From: SAR116 cluster bacterium AG-325-F22
GTDB taxonomy: Bacteria; Pseudomonadota; Alphaproteobacteria; Puniceispirillales; Marisalimonadaceae
Direction: 5' to 3'
NCBI GenBank assembly: GCA_003282885.1
Contig: QBYJ01000001.1
Coordinates: 53,625-117,624 of the forward strand
DNA: 64,000 bases
Shown here: positions 53,559 to 59,625 of the stretch, one piece after another
Position numbering within the stretch: position 1 is the stretch's first letter
Layout of the letters: each line of letters begins with the position of its first letter
Made by a program: the position numbers and the translations under genes
The notes under the pieces: model-generated
Seen by the model: the letters and a program-made list of their open reading frames with translations, nothing else
Told to the model about the DNA's origin: nothing
Databases searched by the model: none

Positions 53559-54551
53559 ATGATTTATGGAAAAATTAAAACAGAATCATCACTAAATGGC
53601 ATCTTGTCATCTTCATTAGTGTTATATGAAAACAATGACATAATTAAAATTAAAAAAGGGACAATAATAAATGAAAATTTAATTAATTTGTTATTAAAAA
53701 ATAACATTAAATCAGTAACTTGTGCCAAACTAAATGAAGACGACGTTGAAGAAAATAAAGCTGTTTACAAAATTTCAAAAAATATTTTAAATAATGAGCA
53801 ACCTAATTTAACTATTCAAGATCCAAGACAAGGTAGATGTAACATAATATCAAATATCAATGGATTGTTGGTATTCGACCCTGAACAATTATTTTTAATA
53901 AATTCTGTAACAGATGAAATTGGTGTTGCGAGTTTAAAATCTTATTCATATGTAAAAAAAAATCAAGTAATCGCGTCAATAAAAGCTATTCCTTTCGCAA
54001 TAAATAAAGAAATTTTAAAAAAAGTAATAAAAACATCAAATAATTGTTTTAAGGTTTTTCCTTTCCTGAAAAAAAATGTTCACTTGATTCAAAGTCGGAA
54101 TCAAAACACCCTTGAAAAAGTTCTAGAAAAAACTGTAATTACTACAAAAAAAAGATTACTTAATTGTGGTATTACTAAAATCATAGAAAAGGTATGTGAT
54201 CATGAAATAAAATCATTATCATCGGAAATACAAGAGAGTATTAATGAAAATGCAGATTTAATTTTAGTTTTTGGAGCATCCGCCATATGTGATAAAAATG
54301 ACGTTGTCCCAAAATCTTTGAAAAAAAATAACGGAAAGATTTTACGTTTAGGAATGCCTGTAGAACCTGGAAATTTAATACTCCTAGGAGAGATTAAAAA
54401 TGTAAATAAAAAAGTTTCTTTTATAGGTATGCCTGGTTGCGCTCGATCCCCGAAAGAAAATGGAGTGGATTGGATATTATGGCGATTTTTTTGTGGATTA
54501 GGAATCTCTAATAATAGTATCAATTATTTGGGAAATGGTGGATTATTATGA
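53559..54551 (+). CDS. Stand-alone molybdopterin-binding (MoCF-like) domain protein
   Basis: NADLILVFGASAICDKNDVVPKSL..., GMPVEPGNLILLGEI, FIGMPGCARSPKENGVDWILWRFFCGL; resembles the N-terminal half of MoCF-nucleotidyltransferase fusions. Confidence 0.75.
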   Translation: MIYGKIKTESSLNGILSSSLVLYENNDIIKIKKGTIINENLINLLLKNNIKSVTCAKLNEDDVEENKAVYKISKNILNNEQPNLTIQDPRQGRCNIISNINGLLVFDPEQLFLINSVTDEIGVASLKSYSYVKKNQVIASIKAIPFAINKEILKKVIKTSNNCFKVFPFLKKNVHLIQSRNQNTLEKVLEKTVITTKKRLLNCGITKIIEKVCDHEIKSLSSEIQESINENADLILVFGASAICDKNDVVPKSLKKNNGKILRLGMPVEPGNLILLGEIKNVNKKVSFIGMPGCARSPKENGVDWILWRFFCGLGISNNSINYLGNGGLL

Positions 54552-54925: not shown

Positions 54926-55930
54926 TTAGTTTTTTTTATTCCTAATATTTGGAATTCCAATATGTGATTCATTTTTTAATTTTGACAATTCAATTTGTTT
55001 TTGACGTTCTTTAAACTTTTGTTTTTGTTTTTTATTTGAGACATTATAACAATAATGACAACTTTCACCTTGTACAAAAAATTTATGCTTTTTATCCTCT
55101 TCACTAATAGGCATTCTGCAAGCAAAACACATATCATAATTACCTAATTTTAAATTGTGTTGAACAGAGACTCTATAATCAAAAACGAAACAGCTACCAT
55201 TCCATTTACTATGTTTCTCAGGAATTTTTTCAAGATATTTTAATATACCTCCTTCTAAATGAAAAACATCTTTAAAGCCCATTGATTTTAAATAGGAGGT
55301 AGACTTTTCGCATCTAATACCTCCTGTGCAAAACATTGCAATTTTTTTATTTTTAATTTCAGGATCTTTTTTAATTAGGTTTTCAGATACCCACTTTGGA
55401 AATTCTCTAAAGTTTTTGATATTTGGGTTTAAAGCGTTCTCAAAAGTCCCAATAGATACTTCATAATCATTTCTTGTATCTATTAACAATAGATTTTTAT
55501 CTGAAATTAATTCATTCCATTTTTCAGGTTCAATATATTTCCCTACTGTATAATTTGGCGAAATATTTTTTATTCCTAAAGTTACAATTTCTTTTTTTAA
55601 TTTAATTTTCATCCTAAAAAATGGATTTTTAGGGGCCAAGGAAAATTTAGGCTTGAGATCGGTAAAATTTTCAATCTTACAAATATTTTCTAAAGCTTCC
55701 GATATTTCATTTTTTTTACCAGCAATAGTTCCATTTACACCTTCATTAGCTAACAGAATAGTCCCTTTAATCTCTGTTCTAGATAGAATTGAATTCAATA
55801 GAGTTTGTAAATAAATAAGATTGACTACATCAAAAAATTTATAAAAAGCAACTACAATATAAATATCATTATTTATAATTTTTTTTTCATTAGACTTTAA
55901 GAAATCTTGATAATCTAATTTTGGACACAT
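54926..55930 (-). CDS. trhO: tRNA uridine(34) hydroxylase / rhodanese-like protein (YceA family)
   Basis: Rhodanese loop MFCTGGIRCEKSTSYLKSMGFKDVFHLEGGILKYLE; C-terminal CFACRMPISEEDK...ESCHYCY. Confidence 0.92.
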   Translation of the reverse strand: MCPKLDYQDFLKSNEKKIINNDIYIVVAFYKFFDVVNLIYLQTLLNSILSRTEIKGTILLANEGVNGTIAGKKNEISEALENICKIENFTDLKPKFSLAPKNPFFRMKIKLKKEIVTLGIKNISPNYTVGKYIEPEKWNELISDKNLLLIDTRNDYEVSIGTFENALNPNIKNFREFPKWVSENLIKKDPEIKNKKIAMFCTGGIRCEKSTSYLKSMGFKDVFHLEGGILKYLEKIPEKHSKWNGSCFVFDYRVSVQHNLKLGNYDMCFACRMPISEEDKKHKFFVQGESCHYCYNVSNKKQKQKFKERQKQIELSKLKNESHIGIPNIRNKKN

Positions 55931-57196: not shown

Positions 57197-57835
57197 ATGA
57201 ATTTAAGATGGAATAACAATATGAAAAATTCATTTTACAGTATTATTAAAATTGATGAAAGCTTTAAAAAAGTATTTGAACAATTTGGTTTACCCCTTAA
57301 TCGTACAATCAAGGAAGGTTTTGAGAGCCTTGCTAAGATTATAATTGGACAACAAATTTCAACTAGAGTGGCAAAATCTCTTAGCGATAAATTAAAAAAA
57401 GATGGTATGTTAAATGAAAAGAAGATGTCTGAGGCCAGCATAGAACAATTAAAGCTTTATGGGTTATCTTCTCAAAAATCATTTTATCTAAAAAATTTAG
57501 CAACACTAGTAATTAAAAATGAAATTAATTTTGATTATCTCAACAAACAAAAAAGTGATGAAGTTACAAATTTATTAATAAAAATTAAAGGAATTGGACA
57601 TTGGACAATTAATAATTATAAAATATTTGCTCTACAAGATACAAACGCTTGGCCATCTGCTGATTTAGCCCTGCAAGAAGCTGTTAAACTATTAAAAAGT
57701 TTGAAAACCAGACCAAGTGAAATAGAGATGGAAAAAATTGGAGGAATGTGGAAACCTTATAGGGGGGCAGCAGCTTTATTTTTATGGCACTTTTATAATA
57801 AAGTAAAAATAGAAAAAGCAGACTTTAAATTATGA
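57197..57835 (+). CDS. DNA-3-methyladenine glycosylase II-like (HhH-GPD)
   Basis: LAKIIIGQQISTRVAKSL; IKGIGHWTINNYKIFALQDTNAWPSADLALQEAV (HhH plus catalytic Asp). Confidence 0.88.
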   Translation: MNLRWNNNMKNSFYSIIKIDESFKKVFEQFGLPLNRTIKEGFESLAKIIIGQQISTRVAKSLSDKLKKDGMLNEKKMSEASIEQLKLYGLSSQKSFYLKNLATLVIKNEINFDYLNKQKSDEVTNLLIKIKGIGHWTINNYKIFALQDTNAWPSADLALQEAVKLLKSLKTRPSEIEMEKIGGMWKPYRGAAALFLWHFYNKVKIEKADFKL

Positions 57836-59625
57836 TAAATTCAAAAAAACTTTTTTACTTAATTGATTTAGCAAGAAAATGTAATAAATGTGCAATGTTG
57901 CATTTTCAAAATCTTAGTATTAATCAGGTAAAGTATAAAAATGATAACTCTCCATTTACTCAAGCAGATCTTGAAGTTAATAAAATAGCCGTTAATGGAA
58001 TAAAAAAACTTTTTCCAAAAGTAAAAATTGTTAGTGAAGAATTTAAGAGATCTCAGAAATTCTTCCAAAACAATAATATTTTTTGGTTGATTGATCCAAT
58101 CGATGGTACCAAAGAGTTTATAAATAAGAAGCCAAATTTCACTGTAAATTTTGCTCTTATAAAAAATAATTCACCCATATTTGGAATAATATCACAGCCT
58201 TACACTGGTAATATTTGGTATAACTTTAAAGGTAAGGCATGGAAATTAGAAAAAGAGCAAGATTTTGAATGTTCTCAGCTCATACAATGTAATAAAATTG
58301 ATTATAATAATGTAAAAATTTTAAGTAGCTCTAATCACAGATCAATAGAGTTAGAAAAATGGATTTCTGTTGTTAATCCTATTTCAGATCAAGATATTGG
58401 CTCTAGTATAAAGTTTTGTTATTTGGCTGAAGGCAAAGTAGATTTTTATCCTCGTACTTCCTCAACTATGGAGTGGGATATTGCAGCTGGACATAGTATT
58501 CTGAAAGCAGCCGGTGGAAATGTTATTTCCCATTCAGGTATTGAAATGAGATACGGTAAAGAACATTTTAAAAATAAAAATTTCTTAGCATGTGGCCTTA
58601 CTAATAATTTACCATGTAAGTTTATATTGAATCTTAATAATACTTATAACGAGAAATATGAAATAGATTTAAATTTGGGGGTAAAGGCTTTAAATCAAAA
58701 AGAACTTATAGCTTTTCCTACCGAGACTGTTTACGGAATTGGGGCAATAGGAAATAGTAAAAAAGCTATTAAAAGTGTTTATTCTGCTAAAGATCGTCCA
58801 TTAAACAATCCTCTAATCGCACACACTTTTAACAAAAGCGAAGCTGAAAAATTTGTTGAATTCACAAATATTGCACATAAATTAACCAATAAATTCTGGC
58901 CAGGTCCACTTACTATAATACTACAAACAAAAAAAAATAATATATCAAAAATATTATCACAAGGTAAAAGTAGTCTTGGAATAAGGGTTCCATCTCACCC
59001 CGTAGCGCTAGACTTACTTGAAAGAGTGAAAATTCCAATTTTAGCTCCAAGCGCAAACAAGTCTGGTGGTGTTAGTCCAACAACTGCTAGACATGTTTAT
59101 GATGATTTTGGCCCAAAATTGCATGGTGACGGTTGGAAACTTTCTAGGATAATTGATTATGGCTCTTGTGAAATTGGAATTGAATCTACTGTTGTTGATT
59201 GTCGTGGTGAAAACCCTATTCTTTTGAGACACGGTTATATAACTACTGAGATGATTTTTGATGTTCTTAAAACTAAAGTTTTAGATCTTAAAAGCAATGT
59301 AGAGATGATTTCTCCTGGATTATTAAAAAGCCACTACTCCCCAAATGCGAACGTATATTTAAATCAGACTTCGAATATGAAAAATAGTGGCTGGTTAATA
59401 TTTGGGAACATTCCAAAGTCATTGCAGAAAAAACAAAATCTGTTTAATTTAAGCCCTAATAAAAATTTAATACAAGCAAGTTATTTACTATTTTCAGGAT
59501 TACGTTACCTAGATACATGTGGTGTCGAAAATATTCAAGTAATGCCAATACCCAACAAAGGAGTTGGAATTGCTATAAATGACCGATTGAAAAGAGCGTC
59601 TTATAAAAAAGAACTTATTAATTAG
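57832..59625 (+). CDS. Fusion protein: 3'(2'),5'-bisphosphate nucleotidase (CysQ-like) + threonylcarbamoyl-AMP synthase (TsaC/Sua5-like)
   Basis: N-terminal IMPase-fold motifs VSEE, WLIDPIDGTKEF, WDIAAGHSILKAAGG; C-terminal AFPTETVYGIGA, AKDRPLNNPL, FWPGPLTIIL, PSANKSGGVSPTTARHV, ESTVVDC, SPGLLKSHYSP, in one uninterrupted 597-codon frame. Confidence 0.93.
   Translation: MINSKKLFYLIDLARKCNKCAMLHFQNLSINQVKYKNDNSPFTQADLEVNKIAVNGIKKLFPKVKIVSEEFKRSQKFFQNNNIFWLIDPIDGTKEFINKKPNFTVNFALIKNNSPIFGIISQPYTGNIWYNFKGKAWKLEKEQDFECSQLIQCNKIDYNNVKILSSSNHRSIELEKWISVVNPISDQDIGSSIKFCYLAEGKVDFYPRTSSTMEWDIAAGHSILKAAGGNVISHSGIEMRYGKEHFKNKNFLACGLTNNLPCKFILNLNNTYNEKYEIDLNLGVKALNQKELIAFPTETVYGIGAIGNSKKAIKSVYSAKDRPLNNPLIAHTFNKSEAEKFVEFTNIAHKLTNKFWPGPLTIILQTKKNNISKILSQGKSSLGIRVPSHPVALDLLERVKIPILAPSANKSGGVSPTTARHVYDDFGPKLHGDGWKLSRIIDYGSCEIGIESTVVDCRGENPILLRHGYITTEMIFDVLKTKVLDLKSNVEMISPGLLKSHYSPNANVYLNQTSNMKNSGWLIFGNIPKSLQKKQNLFNLSPNKNLIQASYLLFSGLRYLDTCGVENIQVMPIPNKGVGIAINDRLKRASYKKELIN

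Follow-up and report, generated by a model that had tools for sequence, protein, structure and literature searches.

A CysQ-type phosphatase fused to Sua5 in a low-GC family of SAR116 marine bacteria

Fusions that contain a YrdC-like domain are known from TobZ and HypF, in which it is joined to a Kae1-like domain (PMC9654439). The partner there consumes the adenylate that the YrdC-like domain makes. The fusion analyzed here also contains a YrdC-like domain; in contrast, its phosphatase partner lies outside that reaction sequence. Both halves have solved relatives. Specifically, the C-terminal half resembles the Sua5 of P. abyssi (6f87) and the TsaC2 of T. maritima (9d3h), with which it is 30-32% identical in structure alignment and shares the KxR and SxN of YrdC, the Thr/Ser/Arg threonine site, the PG...HY gating loop and the SUA5 domain, whereas a CysQ-type phosphatase in front is found in the fusion only and its loop has Leu in third position where P. 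abyssi Sua5 has Met. The N-terminal half has its nearest solved relative by sequence, and its best phosphatase match by fold, in the CysQ of B. thetaiotaomicron (3b8b). The two share the DPxDGTKEF, SEE, GSSxK, YPR and EWDxAAGH motifs and differ in that the protein studied is joined to Sua5 and scores slightly under the TIGR01331 cut-off.

At the level of gene order, the closest counterpart is the unfused cysQ-sua5-FAD-oxidase arrangement of another SAR116 family and several alphaproteobacteria, which has the same order and homologous neighbors but consists of two open reading frames with a 4-nt overlap or a stop and short spacer between them. A literature search returned no mention of CysQ with Sua5 and fusion, or of CysQ with YrdC; two papers that mention CysQ and threonylcarbamoyl deal, judging by title and abstract, with different topics. 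In the literature searched, the fusion is apparently undescribed. The novelty lies in how domains of two known enzyme families are combined, and not in a new system.

A CysQ-type and a Sua5 half in one reading frame

The window, the whole 64,000-nucleotide stretch of SAR116 cluster bacterium AG-325-F22 that was analyzed, has a GC content of 30.5% and holds the fusion gene at 57832..59625 on the + strand, with 597 codons from ATG and no internal stop. Pfam recognizes Inositol_P at residues 10-237 (163.8 bits), Sua5_yciO_yrdC at 286-468 (170.2) and Sua5_C at 470-590 (67.3), all far above the respective cut-offs of 27 (PF00459), 25.1 (PF01300) and 22.9 bits (PF03481), and the motifs DPIDGT, EWDIAAG and SPGLLKSHYSP fall at residues 88-93, 214-220 and 494-504. 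A preliminary description of this DNA had read a single uninterrupted 597-aa CysQ-TsaC/Sua5 frame, and these data bear it out. The gene call rests on Pfam and NCBIfam matches and on 40 distinct full-length fused orthologues, and in the protein a CysQ-type domain (residues ~1-256) is connected through ~20 linker residues to an entire Sua5 with YrdC and SUA5 domains (283-590).

Upstream lies an HhH-GPD DNA glycosylase gene (PF00730; 57197..57835, +), whose last 4 nt (57832-57835) are also the first of the fusion gene, and downstream an FAD-linked oxidase gene (PF01565 and PF02913; 59633..61090, +) begins 7 bp past the fusion stop. These coordinates agree with the earlier reading, and its proposal of one operon is supported as an operon-like cluster. 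The glycosylase is a neighbor kept order-wide and overlaps the fusion by 4 nt (or 1 nt) in all fused loci of the window's genus that have both genes; the oxidase is a conserved sua5 neighbor across the SAR116 order and in many alphaproteobacteria. Elsewhere in the window, another gene with a likely role in tRNA modification (54926-55930, -) lies at a distance of ~2 kb and encodes a UPF0176_N and rhodanese protein that is TrhO/YceA-like; TrhO/YceA is a tRNA U34 hydroxylation factor. A 330-aa open reading frame at 53559-54551 (+) has no Pfam match, and its C-terminal part looks molybdopterin-binding-like by eye only.

The CysQ-type 3'(2'),5'-bisphosphate nucleotidase domain (57832..58599, +; residues ~1-256; PF00459, TIGR01331) has the metal site of the IMPase fold (E, DPxDGT, WD), and the metal ligands E69, D88, D91 and D216 are invariant in the 40 fused orthologues. 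Among IMPase-like proteins a serine before Glu-Glu marks CysQ, with Gly in other groups (PMC5516325). The N-terminal half carries this serine, as VSEE in the window protein, and the S and first E are invariant among the fused orthologues. All 40 also retain GSSxK and the YPR arginine. The candidate 5'-phosphate contacts S192, K194 and R208 are likewise invariant, and H169 is N in 9/40; all four are presumed to face the 5'-phosphate of PAP by analogy with the Hal2 structure. In NCBIfam the half is nearest to CysQ, and its 216.0 bits in TIGR01331 stay below the equivalog cut-off of 228.8, as do those of six other fused members (203.7-226.7); unfused CysQ proteins reach 213.7 and 228.5 bits in the SAR116 family f2 (see below) and 265 in a standalone copy of family f4. 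Since the cut-off is missed, the half is named CysQ-type and not certified as a CysQ equivalog. An identity as HisN, IMPase or SuhB was rejected (TIGR02067 HisN, 122.5 vs 275.15; PRK10757 IMPase, 53.5 vs 332).

The Sua5 half consists of a TsaC/YrdC-like catalytic domain (58678..59235, +; residues 283-468; PF01300), followed by the active-site loop and SUA5 C-terminal domain (59236..59601, +; residues 469-590; PF03481), and it passes TIGR00057 (L-threonylcarbamoyladenylate synthase) with 165.9 bits against a cut-off of 123.2. With the roles of ATP-site, threonine-site and gating-loop residues taken from PMC10321239, all three sites are present. The KxR...SxN residues K320, R322, S407 and N409, the threonine-site residues T297, S452 and R466 (T33, S181 and R195 in Pa-Sua5 numbering) and P495, G496, H501 and Y502 of the PG...HY loop (495-502) are invariant in the 40 fused orthologues; the Met position, third in the loop, is Leu, Gln or Met among relatives.

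Across both halves, 20 of 21 catalytic, metal-binding, ligand or loop positions are invariant in the fused orthologues, the exception being H169, and no catalytic position is among those that separate fused from unfused proteins. Pairwise dN/dS is ~0.12-0.27 for the CysQ half, ~0.08-0.27 for YrdC and ~0.07-0.36 for the SUA5 domain, and as judged from these sequence comparisons both halves are under purifying selection. An AlphaFold model of the fusion (mean pLDDT 92.6, pTM 0.91) suggests a defined packing of the domains rather than beads on a string. This packing is tentative because a second model, of a distant member with a thinner alignment of fused rows only, reached a pTM of 0.54 and gave no such packing. 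In Foldseek the halves were matched separately, Sua5 (9d3h, 6f87) ranking ahead of CysQ (3b8b), with no match across both halves among the 50 matches listed.

Distribution and origin of the fusion

Relatives were drawn from four families of SAR116 (Puniceispirillales), the window's own family (f1) and three others (f2, f3 and f4). All four genera of f1, which is probably the GTDB family AAA536-G10, contain the fusion, with 40 distinct full-length proteins at 48-91% identity and two further copies cut at contig ends (G065, G029), and no intact unfused Sua5 was found in any f1 genome examined. In the window's genus, 29 of 40 genomes have a PF01300 match, one each and always the fusion gene (broken in G030, at a contig end in G029). 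The other 11 are incomplete assemblies, and all five of those tested lack the neighboring FAD oxidase as well. Loss of the fusion was rejected for G009, since its FAD oxidase is missing too and the assembly probably lacks the locus. This genome has a separate CysQ (L063, C2:15500-22500), 36% identical, in a cysD-cysN-cysQ cluster that is followed by polysaccharide-type genes; it perhaps serves sulfation.

In G030 the fused gene is broken between the domains at contig joins (L060, C53:1-6000; L061, C29:9000-15000). The contig with Sua5 starts with a cysS that is 38-41% identical to the genus cysS and has a GC content of ~0.40-0.43 vs ~0.3; a native cysS is present at another place in this genome. 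Sua5 on that contig is fused in frame to an unrelated peptide of ~170 aa. With a foreign cysS next to an own copy elsewhere, a natural fission was rejected as less likely than a chimeric contig, which this probably is.

No fusion was found in f2, f3 or f4, nor did a stop-free match across both halves occur outside f1 in the class samples (386 and 385 genomes, mostly shared between the two) or in a phylum sample of 398 genomes. In 11 alphaproteobacteria of the class sample both halves lie in one frame with a stop between them. Of 60 class loci inspected in detail, none is fused, and cysQ stands immediately upstream of sua5 in 8 of 49, a count that leaves out the other 11 loci, which had been picked because a single match covered their two halves. 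In high-GC alphaproteobacteria, Sua5 was also seen within long frames that run from stop to stop; these contain no CysQ domain and were dismissed as fusions. In plasmid records no place was matched by both halves. A scan of 84,980 genomes with short exact peptides returned only AG-893-L10 (91%, a SAR116 single-cell genome) and SCGC AAA536-K22 (84%); convergent fusions in other phyla are possible, because such a scan is blind to distant ones. As such, the preliminary description's impression of a non-standard architecture holds for the genomes sampled, in which the fusion occurs in one family only.

Outside this family, the two genes offer a plausible picture of the state before fusion. In ten f2 loci, cysQ is a gene of its own that immediately precedes sua5, several pairs having a 4-nt overlap (L053, L055, L056) or one in-frame stop and a spacer of 9-33 nt, and cysQ-sua5 adjacency also occurs in other alphaproteobacterial families. 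In f3 and f4 the order glycosylase-sua5-FAD oxidase is retained and cysQ lies elsewhere. Pairs with cysQ and sua5 in the same frame, separated by one stop and 0-33 nt, were seen in L064-L072 of the class and L049-L052 of f2; the frequency of the former is not a rate, because a match across both halves was the basis for selecting them. Some read-through product from one-stop pairs is conceivable. The unfused 4-nt overlaps and same-frame one-stop pairs may show pre-fusion stages, from which a merger would require the loss of a stop and a start only.

The trees are compatible with this. Fused proteins form one clade in both (support 100/100 for CysQ, 90/78 for Sua5), with the genera grouped alike; deeper placement is uncertain because low GC biases letter composition. 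In the CysQ tree, the standalone CysQ proteins of f3 and f4 and a second f2 copy (L144) form a clade of their own, and it is plausible that the ancestor had one sua5-linked and one free cysQ. The stem leading to the fused clade is long for the CysQ half (1.33 changes per column, CysQ tree) and shorter for the Sua5 half (0.33), which may mean that the former evolved faster at about the point when the genes fused. Because the fusion is limited to one family and cysQ lies upstream of sua5 in many alphaproteobacteria, the comparisons indicate a single origin from a coupled pair of operon genes, in a streamlining lineage of low GC. Locus GC is 27-30% in f1 and f3 and 48-61% in f2 and f4, and SAR116 is split into a low-GC subclade (AAA536-G10, GCA-002684696), streamlined and with short intergenic spacers, and a high-GC subclade (PMC8547437).

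Predicted activities and competing explanations

By Mg-dependent chemistry of the IMPase type, the N-terminal half would hydrolyze the 3'-phosphate of PAP (pAp) to AMP and phosphate. The C-terminal half is predicted to turn threonine, bicarbonate and ATP into threonylcarbamoyl-AMP (TC-AMP) and pyrophosphate, after which TsaD and its partners would move the threonylcarbamoyl group onto tRNA A37. These two activities are most likely independent. Quite probably, the protein is a bifunctional housekeeping enzyme that formed when two coupled, adjacent operon genes fused at the base of the low-GC SAR116 family. Such a fusion would provide co-expression and fixed stoichiometry and would fit genome compaction rather than a new pathway.

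It had been proposed that the fusion links removal of a sulfur-assimilation by-product with t6A, both halves handling related nucleotides. The genomes of the genus do not support this idea. A PF01507 search gave strong matches in 13 of 40 genomes, the three examined proved to be CysD (ATP sulfurylase; one in a cysD-cysN-cysQ cluster), and no PAPS reductase was identified; G030, which is 100% complete, has no PF01507 match and retains the CysQ half. PAP and TC-AMP belong to different reactions with only AMP/ATP in common, and no tie of PAP removal specifically to t6A was found in the genome evidence. AcpS releases PAP from CoA. The enzyme occurs in most genomes of the set and, with TsaD, in the genus. 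That PAP comes from coenzyme A metabolism as well is documented (PMC8268124). Because G030 keeps the CysQ half, CoA metabolism yields PAP and AcpS is widespread, PAP removal is likely needed even without assimilatory sulfate reduction.

The two halves meet in an interdomain linker (58600..58677, +; residues ~257-282) in the former cysQ stop and sua5 start region, which has no conserved internal start codon and agrees with the earlier junction estimate of 58.61-58.68 kb. A stop or frameshift missed there, a risk raised in the preliminary description, could mimic a fusion, given that the window genome is an incomplete draft and that relatives outside the family have a stop between the two genes. 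The chance of this is negligible, since the same intact frame recurs in 40 distinct orthologues of four genera, spanning the identity range given above, with the linker codons in frame in all 40; an assembly error is thereby ruled out. An internal start or proteolysis might instead split the product and free Sua5. The linker is indeed variable, with one invariant position within 259-282 and a helix predicted at 262-269, L025 has an in-frame TTG with an SD-like sequence, and L028 and L036 have isolated in-frame ATGs. However, an ATG or SD-like start is absent from the 40 codons before FPTETV in 37 of the 40 orthologues, and a split product is very improbable.

A functional coupling, in which the fusion would link PAP (or AMP) levels to t6A synthesis, deserves somewhat more weight and is still unlikely. 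PAP could bind near the Sua5 nucleotide site, an inhibitory nucleotide could be removed where TC-AMP forms, or a defined interdomain interface could be involved. PAP is known to inhibit nucleotide-handling enzymes such as Orn (PMC8268124), and one AlphaFold model (pTM 0.91) packs the domains. The fusion is kept across all four genera of f1, and cysQ and sua5 recur as neighbors in several alphaproteobacterial families; both facts could reflect a functional link, for which compaction alone has no need. On the other hand, PAP and TC-AMP share no reaction sequence, the genes are apart in f3, f4 and many other alphaproteobacteria, the linker is poorly conserved and confident packing is absent from the second model. 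Slightly less probable again is a change of substrate in the CysQ half, from PAP to a different phosphate ester, with Sua5 remaining normal. Such a drift could have occurred because the seven fused members scored, the window protein among them, all miss the TIGR01331 cut-off, if narrowly, and because the stem is long; the Asn at H169 in nine orthologues points the same way. Yet the CysQ-type Ser-Glu-Glu motif (PMC5516325) is present along with GSSxK and the arginine of YPR, unfused f2 CysQ proteins score equally (213-228 bits), CysQ is the best solved relative, and the HisN model falls far below its cut-off.

The fusion is a warning to annotators, because either half alone misnames the protein. 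t6A is near-universal, and across this family of abundant, mostly uncultured marine bacteria Sua5 occurs here only as part of a fusion. At the speculative end, and with low probability, PAP or AMP at the CysQ site might tune TC-AMP synthesis, such that CoA/ACP or sulfation metabolism would set the rate of t6A formation; if so, the conserved cysQ-sua5 pair of other alphaproteobacteria would mirror the same link. Taken together, the fusion and the recurring gene pair provide a lead for an unrecognized link between PAP clearance and t6A, and at least a record of how compact genomes merge coupled operon genes.
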